From NCBI GenBank assembly GCA_016935015.1, contig JAFGRT010000105.1, positions 1 to 61,581 of the forward strand: a DNA stretch of 61,581 nucleotides. Reading direction: 5' to 3'. The position numbers and the translations under genes were made by a program. Position 1 is the stretch's first letter; each line of letters begins with the position of its first letter. This DNA comes from Acidobacteriota bacterium (GTDB lineage: Bacteria; Acidobacteriota; JAAYUB01). Below are positions 15,732 to 46,426 of this stretch, piece by piece. Under the pieces are notes generated by a model. That model was not told the DNA's origin, searched no databases, and saw only the letters and a list, made by a program, of their open reading frames with translations.

Positions 15732-16136
15732 TTACTGGACGGCGTTGCCGGCATTATTCCGGATGGCACCATCGGTCATGATGTAGAACCGCCGGTTGGT
15801 GTTGTCGCCATCATCCGGGGTGGCGGTGAAGGCGAAGCCGCCGCTGCTGCCCGTGCCGGAGAAGGTGTAGCCGTCGAACGCCGCCGTTCCGGTGGAAAAG
15901 CGGTCATCGAGGTTGCCCTGGGTGTACAGGTTGGCCAGGGTGCCGTAGGCGGTGTTGGTGCTCTTGGCAATATAGGCCATCTCGGCCGAGGCAATGTTGC
16001 GCAGGGTGGCCTGGGCGGCCTTCTCTTCGGAAACCTTTTTGGATTCCAGCAGGCTGGGCACCGCGATGATGACGATGATGCCGATGATCACCACCACAAT
16101 CAACAACTCGATGAGGGAGAAACCTGATTTGTTCAT
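15732..16136 (-). CDS. pilA: Type IV major pilin, copy 1
   Basis: The 134-residue prepilin has a short leader ending in Gly5, then FSLIELLIVVVIIGIIVIIAVP, the class III signal with Glu at mature position 5. The mature domain has no visible cysteine pair. It is almost identical to the next gene upstream (pilin 2), differing at about six positions, mainly in the leader. The leader (MNKSG) would be cut by PilD prepilin peptidase, which is not in this window. AGGAGG precedes the ATG. A separate, weaker sigma-70-like promoter and an 11-bp inverted repeat lie upstream, while a terminator isolates it from pilin 2. Confidence 0.93.
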   Translation of the reverse strand: MNKSGFSLIELLIVVVIIGIIVIIAVPSLLESKKVSEEKAAQATLRNIASAEMAYIAKSTNTAYGTLANLYTQGNLDDRFSTGTAAFDGYTFSGTGSSGGFAFTATPDDGDNTNRRFYIMTDGAIRNNAGNAVQ

Positions 16137-16168
16137 AAAAGCCTCCTTGTATCAGGGTTTTACTGTAT

Positions 16169-16207
16169 ATCGTCGGATCACTCCGCAGGGCGGTCAGATC
16201 CGACGAT
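16169..16207. repeat. 11-bp perfect inverted repeat in the pilin 1 leader
   Basis: ATCGTCGGATC (16169-16179) and GATCCGACGAT (16197-16207) are perfect inverted repeats around a 17-nt centre that itself can form CCGC/GCGG. It starts about 33 bp upstream of the pilin 1 start codon, so it would be in the mRNA leader. No T-run follows, so it is more likely an operator or a leader structure than a terminator. Confidence 0.6.
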
Positions 16208-16227
16208 GTTCAGATGGCATTGTTTGG

Positions 16228-16256
16228 TTTTGACACGACAAACAGTCAGCAGTCAA
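16228..16256 (-). promoter_or_regulatory. Weak candidate sigma-70 promoter for pilin 1
   Basis: On the minus strand TTGACT (16251-16256) is followed after 17 bp by TCAAAA (16228-16233). The -35 is good, the -10 poor. No sigma-54 -24/-12 pair was found upstream of pilin 1. Confidence 0.3.
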
Positions 16257-16317
16257 CTGCCGGGTCAATCAGAAATCAGATCAGCCGCCACATGTTCGTG
16301 GTTGTCCACGAATCGAC

Positions 16318-16349
16318 AAAAAAAAAGCGGGGTAGACCCCGCCTTTTTT
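16318..16349 (-). terminator. Rho-independent terminator of pilin 2
   Basis: GCGGGG (16327-16332) pairs with CCCCGC (16337-16342) around a TAGA loop. Runs of A on one side and T on the other extend the stem and give a U-tract for the minus-strand transcript. It lies just after the pilin 2 stop. Confidence 0.85.
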
Positions 16350-16361
16350 AATGAAATAAGT

Positions 16362-16766
16362 TTACTGGACCGCGTTGCCGGCGTTGTTGCGGATGGCGCC
16401 GTCGGTCATGATGTAGAAGCGCCGGTTGGTGTTATCGCCATCATCCGGGGTGGCGGTAAAGGAAAAACCGCCGCTGCTGCCCGTACCGGAGAAGGTATAG
16501 CCGTCGAATGTCGCCGTTCCGGTGGAAAAGCGGTCATCGAGGTTGCCCTGGGTGTACATGTTGGCCAGGGTGCCATAGGCCGTGTTGATGCTTTTGGCAA
16601 TGTAGGCCATCTCGGCCGAGGCAATGTTGCGCAGGGTGGCCTGAGCGGCTTTCTCTTCGGAAACCTTCTTGGATTCCAGCAGACTTGGCACTGCGATGAT
16701 CACGATGATGCCGATGATCACGACAACGATCAGCAACTCAATCAATGAAAAACCTTTTCTGTTCAT
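16362..16766 (-). CDS. pilA: Type IV major pilin, copy 2 (sigma-54 controlled)
   Basis: The 134-residue prepilin has leader MNRKG and then the hydrophobic FSLIELLIVVVIIGIIVIIAVP helix; cleavage is expected after Gly5. The ATG at 16766 follows GGAGG by 5 nt, so the upstream in-frame ATG at 16778 is rejected. The mature sequence matches pilin 1 nearly completely (Ile/Thr, Met/Leu, Thr/Ala and Ser/Ala exchanges). It lies directly downstream of pilR with a clear sigma-54 promoter and upstream TGTC sites between them. It ends in a strong terminator. It is the likely structural subunit of twitching/adhesion pili. Confidence 0.95.
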   Translation of the reverse strand: MNRKGFSLIELLIVVVIIGIIVIIAVPSLLESKKVSEEKAAQATLRNIASAEMAYIAKSINTAYGTLANMYTQGNLDDRFSTGTATFDGYTFSGTGSSGGFSFTATPDDGDNTNRRFYIMTDGAIRNNAGNAVQ

Positions 16767-16800
16767 CCGAACCTCCATTCAAATATTCTGATATATCTAT

Positions 16801-30437: not shown

Positions 30438-31109
30438 ATGGATGCCATACCCGGAAAACTCATCGCCGTCGAGGGGCTGGACGGATCCGGCAAATCGACC
30501 CAGATTCATCTGCTGCACCAGTGGCTGCGCGGCCTGGGCTGCAAGGTGTTTTTCTCCGAATGGAACTCCAGCGAAATGGTCAAGGGCGCCACGCGCAAAG
30601 GCAAGAAAAAGCAGCTCCTGACTCCGACCACATTCAGCCTGATTCACGCTACGGATTTCGCCGACCGCTACGAGCGCCAGATCCTGCCCATGCTGAAAGG
30701 CGGGTATATCGTCCTGTGCGACCGCTACATGTTCACGGCCTTCGCCCGGGACGGCGTGCGGGGGTGTGATCCCGCCTGGTTGCGTGAACTGTACGGTTTC
30801 GTGCGCAAACCGGATATCACCTACTATTTCCGGTTGCCGCTGGAAACGGCCCTGGGACGGATCCTGGAAGGCCGTCCACAGTTGAAATTTTTTGAGGCGG
30901 GTATGGATATCGGTTTGTCCGCCGACATTTTCGAGAGTTTCCGCCTGTTTCAGGGCAAAGTCAAGGAACACTATGACCGGCTGGCTGATGAGTATGGATT
31001 CACTGTCGTGGATGCCACGCTGCGGATTCCCGAGCAGCAGGCGGTGGTTCGCCGAATTTTCCAGGAACGCATCGACCTGGCGCGATTCCGGCAACGGGTG
31101 CAACAATGA
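30438..31109 (+). CDS. Thymidylate-kinase-like P-loop kinase, copy A
   Basis: The 223-residue protein has Walker A GLDGSGKST at 13-21 and DRYMFTAFARD at 95-105, the DRY motif of thymidylate kinases. In place of the usual TMK LID region it has FFEAGMDIGLSADIFESF at 151-168, a block also present in the neighbouring copy B. It starts 1 bp after the ppx/gppA stop with AGGAG 8 nt upstream, and its stop overlaps copy B by 4 bp. Family knowledge says TMK-like kinases phosphorylate nucleoside monophosphates; PPK2 polyphosphate kinases share the fold. In this setting a polyphosphate- or nucleotide-linked role is inferred. Canonical tmk, usually next to holB, is less likely. Confidence 0.75.
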   Translation: MDAIPGKLIAVEGLDGSGKSTQIHLLHQWLRGLGCKVFFSEWNSSEMVKGATRKGKKKQLLTPTTFSLIHATDFADRYERQILPMLKGGYIVLCDRYMFTAFARDGVRGCDPAWLRELYGFVRKPDITYYFRLPLETALGRILEGRPQLKFFEAGMDIGLSADIFESFRLFQGKVKEHYDRLADEYGFTVVDATLRIPEQQAVVRRIFQERIDLARFRQRVQQ

Positions 31110-31807
31110 AAAAACAGTGCTACGGTAATCCTCCTCCGGGTGTCAAACTGGAAAACCTCCGCGGCGCCCTGATCGTCATTGAGGGCGCGGACTCCTCCGG
31201 CCGATCCACCCAGATCGCCGAGCTGTCTGAATGGCTGGAACAAAAAGGCTATGCCGTCGCCCGCAGCGGGCTGACCCGTTCCATTCTGGTGGGATCGGAT
31301 TTGGACAAGGCCAAGGAAGGAAACGTGTTAAGTCCGCGGACCATGTCATTGTTCTATGCCACGGATTTTTACGACCAGCTGGAAAATTCCATCATTCCCG
31401 CCCTGCGGGCCGGCTATATCGTTCTGGCGGACCGGTACATCTATACACTCATTGCCCGCGATTCCATCCGCGGCGGGAATCCGGGCTGGCTGGATTCGTT
31501 ATATTCCCAGGCACTCATGCCCAATGCCGTTTTCTTCCTGATGACCTCCACCCGCAATCTGATGGAGCGGACCCTGTCCACCCATTACCGTTTGGATTAC
31601 TGGGAGTCGGGGATGGACTTGGGCTTGTCCCGGGACTGGTATGAGAGTTTTATCCTTTACCAGCGACGGCTGCGCACGGAGTTCAAGAAACTGCAGCAGC
31701 GCTACGGTTTTGAGATGATCAATGCCAATCGTTCCGTCAGTGCCATTCAGAAGGAATTACGGGCGCGAGTGGATATCGTTCTGGAACGGGTATACCAGCG
31801 CGCATGA
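31106..31807 (+). CDS. Thymidylate-kinase-like protein, copy B, with altered Walker A
   Basis: The 233-residue protein is a diverged paralogue of copy A. Its P-loop reads GADSSGRST (27-35), so the invariant Walker A lysine is Arg33 (codon CGA). DRYIYTLIARD (109-119) and YWESGMDLGLSRDWYESF (165-182) are retained. The N-terminus is about 14 residues longer than in copy A. Loss of the P-loop lysine usually abolishes or strongly lowers ATP-dependent transfer, so it may be a regulatory subunit of copy A, or use another phosphate donor; both are inference. It overlaps copy A by ATGA, implying coupled synthesis, possibly as a heterodimer. Confidence 0.75.
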   Translation: MKKQCYGNPPPGVKLENLRGALIVIEGADSSGRSTQIAELSEWLEQKGYAVARSGLTRSILVGSDLDKAKEGNVLSPRTMSLFYATDFYDQLENSIIPALRAGYIVLADRYIYTLIARDSIRGGNPGWLDSLYSQALMPNAVFFLMTSTRNLMERTLSTHYRLDYWESGMDLGLSRDWYESFILYQRRLRTEFKKLQQRYGFEMINANRSVSAIQKELRARVDIVLERVYQRA

Positions 31808-43288: not shown

Positions 43289-43350
43289 AGGTTGCGAACG
43301 ACGTGTCCCACCGGCCCCTGGGCGGGCGACAGACACAAGGAGGAAGATCC

Positions 43351-44313
43351 ATGGATCATCATCCCTTGCGCAACATGGGATTCGAACTGGCGCGGGTTAC
43401 CGAGTCCACGGCCCTCAGTGCCGCCCGCTGGGTCGGGCTGGGAACACGGCAGGAAGTGAATGGCGCCGCTTTCGCGACCATGTACGATGCCCTGAATATG
43501 CTGGAAATTGACGGAGTCATCGCCTACGGTGAGGAAGGCCGCCTGGGCGCGCCGCTGTCTCTGCAGACCGGTTCCCGTATCGGTAGCGGCAACGGACCGG
43601 CCATGGATGTGCTGGCAAATCCCATCGACGGCGCCGGTTACGTGGTGCAGTCTTTGCCCAACGCCGTCTCGGCACTGGCGGTGTTGCCGCGTGGATCGGT
43701 CTGGCGTCCCCGGCCGGCCGTGTACATGGAAAAAATCGTGGTGGATCAGGACGTGGCCGAGGCCCTGGTGCCCGAATGCCTGGACGCCCCGGCCGGCTGG
43801 ACCATCGCTCTGGTGGCACGCAAGAAAAAAAAGCCGGTCCGGGATGTGACGGTCTTCGTTCTGGACCGCCCACGCCATCAACATCTCGTCGAGGAGATCC
43901 GCCGCTCCGGCGCCCGACTCTTTCTCCGCCAGCAGGGTGATTTGACCGGGGCCCTGCTGGCTGTAAGTCCCCAGTGTCGCGTCGATATCCTCATGGGCAT
44001 CGGCGGCGTGGCCGAAGGATTGCTGGCGGCTTGTGCCGTGAAATCCCTGGGCGGTGGCATGCTGGGCCGGCTGGCGCCGCAGACTACGGAGGAGAGATCC
44101 GCTCTCATGGAAAGAGGCATTGATCCGGCCCGCATCCTCCAGGGCGATGAAATGATATCGGCCGAAGAGATTTATGCGGCCGTCACCGGGATCACCGACA
44201 GCCCGATCCTGGCCGGCGTGCATTTTCATGGCAAGCGGGCCCGCACGGAAACCATGATTCTGCGTCACGAAACCGGCATGCGCCGCAAGTTGGTCACCGA
44301 TTATCGCCTGTGA
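43351..44313 (+). CDS. GlpX-like (fructose-1,6-bisphosphatase class II) protein with altered active site
   Basis: The 320-residue protein aligns along its length with GlpX: FELARVTESTALSAARWVG, MEKIVV, GIGGVAEGLLAA and AAVTGITDSPILAGV. The ATG at 43351 follows AAGGAGGA. Compared with E. coli GlpX from memory, Asp33 is Asn37, Asp85 is Asn90, Glu88 is Asp93, Thr90 is Ala95, and the EIDEAP segment after Glu57 reads EGRLGAP; Glu57 and Glu213 are kept. Two metal ligands are therefore changed from Asp to Asn. It may be inactive, have another substrate, or be a regulatory paralogue. The 3' end overlaps the convergent sulP gene by 20 bp. Confidence 0.8.
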   Translation: MDHHPLRNMGFELARVTESTALSAARWVGLGTRQEVNGAAFATMYDALNMLEIDGVIAYGEEGRLGAPLSLQTGSRIGSGNGPAMDVLANPIDGAGYVVQSLPNAVSALAVLPRGSVWRPRPAVYMEKIVVDQDVAEALVPECLDAPAGWTIALVARKKKKPVRDVTVFVLDRPRHQHLVEEIRRSGARLFLRQQGDLTGALLAVSPQCRVDILMGIGGVAEGLLAACAVKSLGGGMLGRLAPQTTEERSALMERGIDPARILQGDEMISAEEIYAAVTGITDSPILAGVHFHGKRARTETMILRHETGMRRKLVTDYRL

Positions 44314-46426
44314 GCACGGCTGTCAACAGGCCTTCCGCCTTCCAGGCACGCAACCCCCCCCGCAGGATGGAAACTCTGGAAAATCCACGGTGTTGAAGAT
44401 ACGCTGCCGCCAAGTGGCTCCGTCGGCCGGTGCGGCAAACGAGGACGATGGACCGGTGTAGCAGCAGGTCGCCGCAGTTTTCGTCCAGTCCCGACAGGGA
44501 CCGGAGTTCGGCGCCGGCGATATGCTCCCGCCGGTACTCGCGAGGTTCGCGTACATCGATGATCAGGGGGCGAGGAGGCTCCGCATGCTGCAGCTCCCAC
44601 AACTCCCGGGGAGTTACCGTCGGTGTGGGCTGGACGGTCAGGTGATGAAAGGAGGGGATGGTTTTGGCGAATTCTTCCTTCGGCAGGTTCTGGCATTCCT
44701 TCCATACACGTACAGGGCATTCATAAATACAGACGGCCGGATCGATGATCCGGTAAAAAAGATGGTCCAGAGCGGCCGTGTCGCCGGCTAGAAAATGGTC
44801 CGCGCCCAGTTCTTCATAAAACCGTGTGGATTTCATGAATTCAAGGACGTGGTCACGCACATGAACCAGATAGACATCACCGCCCATTTCCCGGTAGGTA
44901 CGGCAAACACTCTCCAGCATGTGTATCCCACTAAAGTCACATTGGTTGACGGCACGCATGCGCAACAGCAGAAACCGCTGGGTGGGATGTTCGGCCTGGT
45001 ATTTGGTGATGGCCTGCTCGATGTGGTTGACCGCGCCGAAATAGAGATCGCCCAGGATGTTCATGATTCCCAGCTGAGGACAGGCCGGACGCGCTTCTTG
45101 GGGAATGAAATGGCGGAAATTCAGGTCGGAGACCACCGGATAGACACGCGGTGCGCTGGTCCGCAGGATGTAAACGGCGAAGGATAGCAGGATGCCGGTC
45201 AGCACGGCAAAATCGATTTGGAACATCACCGTGCCACCGAAGGTGACCACCATGATAAGGGCATCACCGCGAGTGCCGCGCAAGATGCGGCGCATCTCGC
45301 GAAAATCGATGACGGCAAAGGCGGTGATGATGAGGACGGCGGCCAGGGCAGTGCGGGGCAGAAGTGCTGTGTACGGTGCCAGCAACAAAGTGGCCAGTAG
45401 AACGAAGATGCCGGAGAAAATGGACGCCACGGTTGTACGCGCGCCGGCACGATAATTGATGGCCGAGCGGGAGAAAGAGGCGGCCAGGGGAAAACCGGAA
45501 AAAACACCGGCGCCGATATTGGCCAGGCCTTGGCCGACGAATTCCTGATTGCTGTCGAGATGTTGGCCGCTCTGGGCGGCGATGGATCGGGAGATGGCGC
45601 TGGTCTCCACCAGGCCGATGGCGGCGACGGCCAGTGCTCCGGTGACCAGCTGGCTCATCAGCTGCACATTCAGAACGGGCAGCCCGGCTACCGGGGGCAG
45701 TCCAAAGGGCAGGGCGCCCAGAACGCTGACTCCCTGTTGGTCCAACCGCAGCAAATAGACGGCCAGGGCGGAACCGATCATACCCATGAGCAGCGATGGC
45801 CACACCGGGCGCCATCGGCGCACCGCCGCCATCAGCACCATGGTGCCCAAGCCCAGCAGCAGGGTTGGCCAGTGGGGGGCGCCCAGGCCGTCGAAAAATG
45901 AACGAGCCGTTGTGATGATGCCATCGCCTTGGAAATCGATCCCCAGCAGGTGCCGCAACTGCTTGCCGATGATCAGTACGCCGGCACCGGCTGAAAAGCC
46001 CACGACCACCGAATGGGAGACGAAATTCACCAGCAGGCCGAGGCGGGCCAGGCCCATGAGAAGCTGGACCAGGCCGGCCATCACCGCCAGCAGCCCGGCG
46101 GCGACGATAAATTGCTGGGTGCCCGTTTGGGAGACCACGAGAAGGGTGGACAAAACCAACAGGGACATGGCGTTGGCAGGCCCCGTGTGCTGATGGTGGG
46201 AGTGCCCCCACAGGCCGGCGACCAGGGCGCCGACAATGGCGGTGTAGAGACCCATTTCGGGCGGTAGTTCGGCGATCAGGGCAAAAGCGATGCCCTGGGG
46301 GATCATCACCACGGCCACTGTCAAACCGGCCACAAGGTCCGGTTTCAGGTGGCGGCGGTCATAATCACGCGCCAGATAGAAGGGCTGCAGCAAGAGCCGT
46401 GAAACGTGCCGGGTGATGGACGGCAT
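44294..46426 (-). CDS. SulP anion transporter with STAS and rhodanese domains
   Basis: The 710-residue protein has a SulP transporter domain (about residues 25-420, around 12-14 helices; GLTVAVVMIPQGIAFALIAELPPEMGLY), a cytoplasmic STAS domain (about 445-570; FLLLRMRAVNQCDFSGIHML) and a C-terminal rhodanese domain (about 610-705; LIIDVREPREYRREHIAGAEL, catalytic Cys664 in VCRTGRRS). SulP-STAS proteins carry sulfate, bicarbonate or other anions; rhodanese moves sulfane sulfur or, in fused forms, may sense the redox or sulfur state. The rhodanese fusion points to a sulfur substrate, but this is inferred. A single-gene unit. Confidence 0.88.
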   Translation of the reverse strand: MPSITRHVSRLLLQPFYLARDYDRRHLKPDLVAGLTVAVVMIPQGIAFALIAELPPEMGLYTAIVGALVAGLWGHSHHQHTGPANAMSLLVLSTLLVVSQTGTQQFIVAAGLLAVMAGLVQLLMGLARLGLLVNFVSHSVVVGFSAGAGVLIIGKQLRHLLGIDFQGDGIITTARSFFDGLGAPHWPTLLLGLGTMVLMAAVRRWRPVWPSLLMGMIGSALAVYLLRLDQQGVSVLGALPFGLPPVAGLPVLNVQLMSQLVTGALAVAAIGLVETSAISRSIAAQSGQHLDSNQEFVGQGLANIGAGVFSGFPLAASFSRSAINYRAGARTTVASIFSGIFVLLATLLLAPYTALLPRTALAAVLIITAFAVIDFREMRRILRGTRGDALIMVVTFGGTVMFQIDFAVLTGILLSFAVYILRTSAPRVYPVVSDLNFRHFIPQEARPACPQLGIMNILGDLYFGAVNHIEQAITKYQAEHPTQRFLLLRMRAVNQCDFSGIHMLESVCRTYREMGGDVYLVHVRDHVLEFMKSTRFYEELGADHFLAGDTAALDHLFYRIIDPAVCIYECPVRVWKECQNLPKEEFAKTIPSFHHLTVQPTPTVTPRELWELQHAEPPRPLIIDVREPREYRREHIAGAELRSLSGLDENCGDLLLHRSIVLVCRTGRRSHLAAAYLQHRGFSRVSILRGGLRAWKAEGLLTAVLTGDNR

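Follow-up and report, generated by a model that had tools for sequence, protein, structure and literature searches.

The stretch of DNA that we analyzed (the window: 61,581 nucleotides from an Acidobacteriota bacterium) encodes a protein related along its whole length to GlpX, the class II fructose-bisphosphatase (FBPase), with substitutions at several positions of the active site. The locus raises the question of whether such a protein is a working metabolic enzyme, a phosphatase with a changed substrate, a decaying passenger, or a protein maintained in some other role.

A GlpX-like protein with a conserved fold

The gene and its upstream signal are as follows.

43351..44313, forward strand: GlpX-like protein (class II FBPase fold), intact ORF of 320 aa, apparently catalytically degenerate (profile matches, alignments, and AF2 model)
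43337..43343 (approximate), forward strand: Shine-Dalgarno-like AAGGAGG 5' of the ATG at 43351 (read from the upstream sequence ...ACAAGGAGGAAGATCCATG)

The protein matches the Pfam profile FBPase_glpX (PF03320) with 316 bits against a cut-off of 27, spanning profile positions 1 to 305 of 307, and its AF2 model (pLDDT 92) aligns with M. tuberculosis GlpX at a TM of 0.92; full-length profile and structure together thus place it in this fold family. The first-pass annotation, made from the sequence alone, had described the rest of the fold as well kept, in agreement with these results, and the residue losses discussed below stand in alignments with other GlpX proteins. The top PDB match of the model (6ayv; TM 0.92) is, by chance, the T84A mutant of the M. 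tuberculosis enzyme. The weak, low-confidence part of the model is the active-site loop (residues ~61 to 70). Against the NCBIfam equivalog model for glpX (TIGR00330), the protein scores 217.7 bits, below the cut-off of 259.3 for functional equivalogs.

Elsewhere in the window, we observed two near-identical tandem type IV pilin-like genes (15732 to 16778, reverse strand) beside pilus assembly and sensor/regulator-like genes, as well as consecutive ORFs of 223 and 233 aa (30438 to 31807, forward strand), both with thymidylate-kinase-like P-loop motifs near the start.

Degeneration of the active site

Residues were numbered after E. coli GlpX in alignments with the E. coli and M. tuberculosis enzymes and with Chloroflexota and other GlpX proteins. 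Across the 41 canonical GlpX proteins of our reference set, D33, E57, E59, D61, D85, T90, and E213 are invariant. The relevant positions of the window copy are given below.

43459..43461, forward strand: AAT (Asn37), D33N, loss of a metal-2 ligand and partner of Thr90 (alignment; role of Asp33 from PMC5892879)
43531..43560, forward strand: loop EEGRLGAPLS replacing EGE(I/K)DEAPM, with Glu57 kept and Glu59 and Asp61 lost (alignment; low confidence in the model)
43618..43620, forward strand: AAT (Asn90), D85N, loss of the main metal ligand, seen only in this copy among 32 clade members (alignment)
43633..43635, forward strand: GCC (Ala95), T90A, loss of the catalytic Thr, equivalent to M. tuberculosis T84A (alignment; PMC5892879)
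43867..43875, forward strand: Arg-Pro-Arg (R173-P-R175), sugar 6-phosphate pocket retained (alignment; pocket assignment from PMC10289334)

The alignments confirm D33N, D85N, and T90A, which the first-pass annotation had named relative to E. coli GlpX; K29R and a Gln in place of D186 of the IxDGD motif are also present. E88D (codon at 43627), which it had counted among the lost ligands, is a genuine substitution but a neutral one, because GlpX of M. tuberculosis and of many Chloroflexota normally has Asp at this position. Its statement that the EIDEAP loop is gone is correct as to the loss of E59 (now Gly) and D61 and incorrect as to a deletion, GEGEIDEAP of canonical GlpX being substituted by GEEGRLGAPLS. 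Metal ligands have been lost at D33 and D85, whereas D88 and two glutamates of the metal site, E57 and E213, remain. The sugar-phosphate contacts Y119, R164/R166, and D188 are all retained.

In M. tuberculosis GlpX, the T84A mutant (T90A in E. coli numbering) is inactive, and the D33-T90 interaction has been described as required (PMC5892879); likewise, E. coli GlpX D61A is essentially inactive (PMC10289334). The window protein is naturally altered at D33, D61, and T90 and, in addition, at the main metal ligand, Asp85. By extension from these other enzymes, the substitutions support an intact fold that probably houses a dead or near-dead active site, and the predicted pseudoenzyme status is well supported. 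The first-pass annotation had left the choice between a pseudo-enzyme and an enzyme with another substrate; the former is the better option, as D33, D61, and T90 are all lost. We rejected an assembly or sequencing error as the source of the substitutions, since several independent codons are altered and most of the positions are shared with relatives.

A clade of degenerate GlpX proteins

The nearest relatives of the window protein are Chloroflexota proteins with ~50 to 55% identity and proteins from two genomes of its own phylum (G063 and G529). In a tree built without the active-site columns, the window protein, that of G063, and 20 Chloroflexota proteins (22 rows) form one group with 100/100 support. 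The clade is otherwise mainly from Chloroflexota, and its titled genomes are metagenome assemblies. Clade-specific residues are fixed, above all around VPEC(M/L)DAPxxWTLAL, and the window protein carries the clade-specific motif VPECLDAPAGWT. Within 32 clade members, position 29 is never Lys, position 90 is Thr in 17, Arg in 13, and Ala in 2, and position 33 is Asp in 20, His in 9, Asn in 2, and Gly in 1; E59 and D61 are nearly all gone, and Y119, R166, E57, D85, and D188 are nearly fixed. In 30 of the 32, position 58 has become acidic, and this residue could partly replace E59/D61. D85N, G96S, and F280A are confined to the window copy, the most degraded of the clade. Values of dN/dS (Nei-Gojobori) between close clade members range from 0.07 to 0.22, pointing to maintenance under purifying selection; these figures are rough because synonymous sites are near saturation in the pairs compared, and they cover close clade pairs, the window lineage having no close homolog for such pairing.

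Since about half of the clade members retain Thr90, and most of them Asp85 and Asp/Glu88, some might still be slow phosphatases. Indeed, the clade as a whole could be conceived of as active phosphatases that use a single metal site on a changed substrate, in a pathway with the SulP-rhodanese protein described below. The substrate might then be linked to sulfur, as PAP is, or be a different sugar phosphate. GlpX and the PAP phosphatases belong to one phosphatase superfamily, catalysis with one metal has been suggested for F. tularensis GlpX, and the partner is a sulfate permease family member that carries a rhodanese domain. Although most Chloroflexota members retain E57, D85, D/E88, and E213, we consider this interpretation unlikely: conserved new chemistry would predict a stable active site, whereas the active-site residues drift within the clade, Thr90 being Arg or Ala in 15 of the 32 members beside the loss of K29 and the near-complete loss of E59 and D61, E213 being Gln in a subclade, and the window copy also lacking D85. 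Furthermore, the contacts that are kept are those for a furanose 6-phosphate.

His33 and Gln213 occur together in one subclade (L034, L041, L044, L047, L050, L052, and L115), whose genomes, where tested, have a class I FBPase in place of canonical GlpX. Outside the SulP-linked clade, a further divergent GlpX from the window's phylum (L006 in G016) has T90P, Y119H, D186G, and D188F, possibly an independent loss of GlpX function.

Other FBPases in the same genomes

We examined 20 Chloroflexota genomes that encode a clade member, and 19 of them have a normal FBPase in addition: canonical GlpX in 12 and, among the 8 without it, a class I FBPase in 7. Neither was found in the assembly of the eighth (G105). 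A second canonical fbp or glpX gene, which the first-pass annotation had suggested looking for, was not found in the window genome; this 97%-complete assembly yielded no other PF03320 protein and no class I, III, or V FBPase. As the sole recognizable FBPase of its genome, the window copy might be taken for the working enzyme of the organism, a reading that we regard as highly improbable given that it lacks residues at which one substitution suffices to inactivate the enzyme (PMC5892879 and PMC10289334). Moreover, searches of three genomes of the same family (G001 to G003) found no GlpX or class I, III, or V FBPase, which suggests that the lineage manages without them. The window genome also has a PFK (L100; G000:C110:5321-6310) with the PPi-type motifs GGDD and PKTMDND. 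PPi-dependent PFK is reversible, and an enzyme with these motifs could carry the gluconeogenic flux in this organism.

Linkage to a SulP-STAS-rhodanese transporter

Clustering of the neighbors around the GlpX-like loci recovered a single recurrent gene, which codes for a SulP-STAS-rhodanese protein. The window copy has the following features.

44294..46426, reverse strand: SulP transporter, 710 aa, with Sulfate_transp (45242-46348), STAS (44807-45073), and rhodanese (44333-44614) domains (domain matches)
44678..44731, reverse strand: linker CIYECPVRVWKECQNLPK joining the STAS and rhodanese domains, a hallmark of the SulP subfamily paired with GlpX-like proteins
44417..44437, reverse strand: rhodanese active loop CRTGRRS

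This domain composition assigns the neighbor to the SulP/SLC26 transporters, its closest solved relatives being prestin and plant sulfate transporters. The structure model of the monomer is mediocre (pLDDT 74.5, <50 in the linker) and was left out of our conclusions. The two window ORFs are convergent, with a 20-bp overlap (44294-44313), and are hence not part of one transcript. A misassembly of the pair is unlikely, as both ORFs are intact and their coding ends overlap.

The transporter gene adjoins the GlpX-like gene in 31 of 31 testable loci (all 18 Chloroflexota loci with enough flank, G063, G529, ten further Chloroflexota genomes, and the window). Outside the window, it is the immediate upstream neighbor in the same orientation, with spacings mostly between a 4-bp overlap and gaps of tens of base pairs and with several 4-bp start-stop overlaps. 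In the SulP proteins examined, STAS and rhodanese are joined by the linker CIYECxxRxFxECQNLPK or a close variant of it, and so they are in the neighbor in the window (CIYEC..ECQNLPK). Among 151 Chloroflexota genomes, 11 contain this SulP tail and the same 11 contain the degenerate GlpX, always adjacent; the chance of such a match is 1/C(151,11), or ~6e-17, with shared ancestry ignored. A twelfth genome (G220), without the SulP, encodes a sister GlpX (L116) in which K29, D33, D61, and T90 are kept. Both genes occur in the same 2 genomes among 99 relatives of the window. In 396 genomes of its phylum, the SulP tail is present in 6, of which 3 have the GlpX-like neighbor; the others (G453, G547, and G571) have a more distant SulP and no GlpX-like neighbor in the stretches read. 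The divergence of the SulP proteins is correlated with that of the GlpX-like proteins (Spearman 0.59; 0 of 5,000 permutations).

In two phyla, the GlpX-like genes are thus tied almost without exception to a single SulP subfamily. Because shared ancestry and cotransfer inflate the figures, we read the linkage, co-occurrence, and correlation as the marks of a stable unit rather than of independent origins. Catalytic decay tracks the pairing with this subfamily, given that L116, without the SulP, is near-canonical and that the SulP proteins with a LEKH-type linker (see below) have no partner.

The three-cysteine linker is almost invariant in the SulP subfamily (window, L033 to L058, L102, and L141). 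At one locus (G274:C1:1738872-1741887), a single GlpX-like gene is preceded by a closely spaced pair of SulP-STAS-rhodanese genes. Two other candidate neighbors were discarded: the nitroreductase upstream in the window is not seen at other loci, where only the SulP recurs, and an amidohydrolase shared with L048/L049 is not adjacent in the window and was taken as a coincidence.

The pair occurs in just 3 of the 396 sampled genomes of the phylum, and the window copy stands on a long branch, is inverted relative to the SulP gene, and has suffered the extra losses D85N, G96S, and F280A at clade-conserved positions. It might consequently be seen as a passenger that came in with the SulP gene and is now decaying without function in this organism. 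This is quite improbable in our estimate: against it stand the intact ORF, the strong ribosome-binding site, the high-confidence fold, the retained phosphate pocket and clade motif, and an adjacency to the SulP gene that was kept despite the inversion.

A predicted regulatory partner of the transporter

The fold and the sugar-phosphate-binding residues have been kept, and the nucleophile, general-base, and second-metal side of the active site has been lost. The location beside one anion transporter in two phyla and the loss of catalytic residues suggest that the GlpX-like protein is probably a regulatory partner of SulP and not a metabolic enzyme. Specifically, we favor, with moderate confidence, a GlpX-derived clade that has given up phosphatase chemistry and whose role is tied to the SulP-STAS-rhodanese anion transporter, on which it would act as a regulatory subunit. 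Such a cytoplasmic subunit would bind, but not hydrolyze, a phosphorylated sugar (FBP- or F6P-like) and would dock on the STAS/CIYEC-linker/rhodanese tail; once docked, it might adjust anion uptake to the carbon or sulfur status. A metabolic protein bound to STAS has precedent, as the STAS domains of other SulP/SLC26 transporters bind acyl carrier protein (ACP) and cysteine synthase (PMC5703999 and references therein). More speculatively, GlpX may have been recruited as a noncatalytic sugar-phosphate sensor of SulP-STAS-rhodanese. The two proteins would then form a system in which the uptake of inorganic anions is coupled to central carbon status, with sulfur or redox input through the Cys-rich linker and the rhodanese, and this system would have spread from Chloroflexota to another phylum; we put this forward as a tentative possibility, on balance doubtful.

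The clade-wide losses, the SulP-STAS-rhodanese partner, and the lack of a second GlpX in the window genome go beyond what the first-pass annotation had contained. We found no paper on the GlpX-like/SulP pair in a literature search of partial coverage, which is hence weak evidence of novelty. Owing to the strong fold match, databases tend to label the clade fructose-bisphosphatase, a label that would mislead metabolic models, since a real FBPase is present in 19 of the 20 Chloroflexota genomes that encode a clade protein. Should the pairing with SulP prove functional, the clade would clearly exemplify the conversion of a gluconeogenic enzyme into a transporter partner, for which the near-canonical sister L116 and the partner-free SulP subfamily offer ready-made controls.

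Comparison with known systems

The window protein resembles the class II FBPase GlpX of E. coli, M. tuberculosis, and F. tularensis in its full-length fold (TM ~0.9; 31 to 38% identity) and in having Y119, R164/R166, D188, E57, and E213; it differs in lacking K29, D33, E59, D61, D85, and T90, in falling below the TIGR00330 cut-off, and in its linkage to SulP. The engineered, inactive T84A mutant of M. tuberculosis GlpX (PDB code 6ayv) still binds F6P, and the same Thr-to-Ala change is natural in the window protein, which has several further losses.

On the transporter side, DauA-ACP and the plant sulfate transporter-cysteine synthase pair likewise combine a STAS-bearing SulP with a soluble protein of metabolic type, here a candidate partner. 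In contrast to these, the candidate in the window is a predicted pseudoenzyme of the GlpX type that is genetically linked to its transporter, and the transporter has a Cys-rich linker and a rhodanese domain. The sister SulP-STAS-rhodanese subfamily (L142, L143, and L144, from G453, G547, and G571, respectively) has the same architecture and 44 to 46% tail identity, but its linker, CIYECEHRVFAECQ[AP]LEKH, ends in LEKH rather than NLPK and there is no GlpX-like gene nearby. Finally, SuhB, with the IMPase fold, is a structural part of an rRNA antitermination complex. It parallels the proposed partner as a phosphatase-superfamily fold in a noncatalytic role, and one of its structures (6tqn) is a weak fold match to the window model; it belongs to a different family, however, and keeps its active site.
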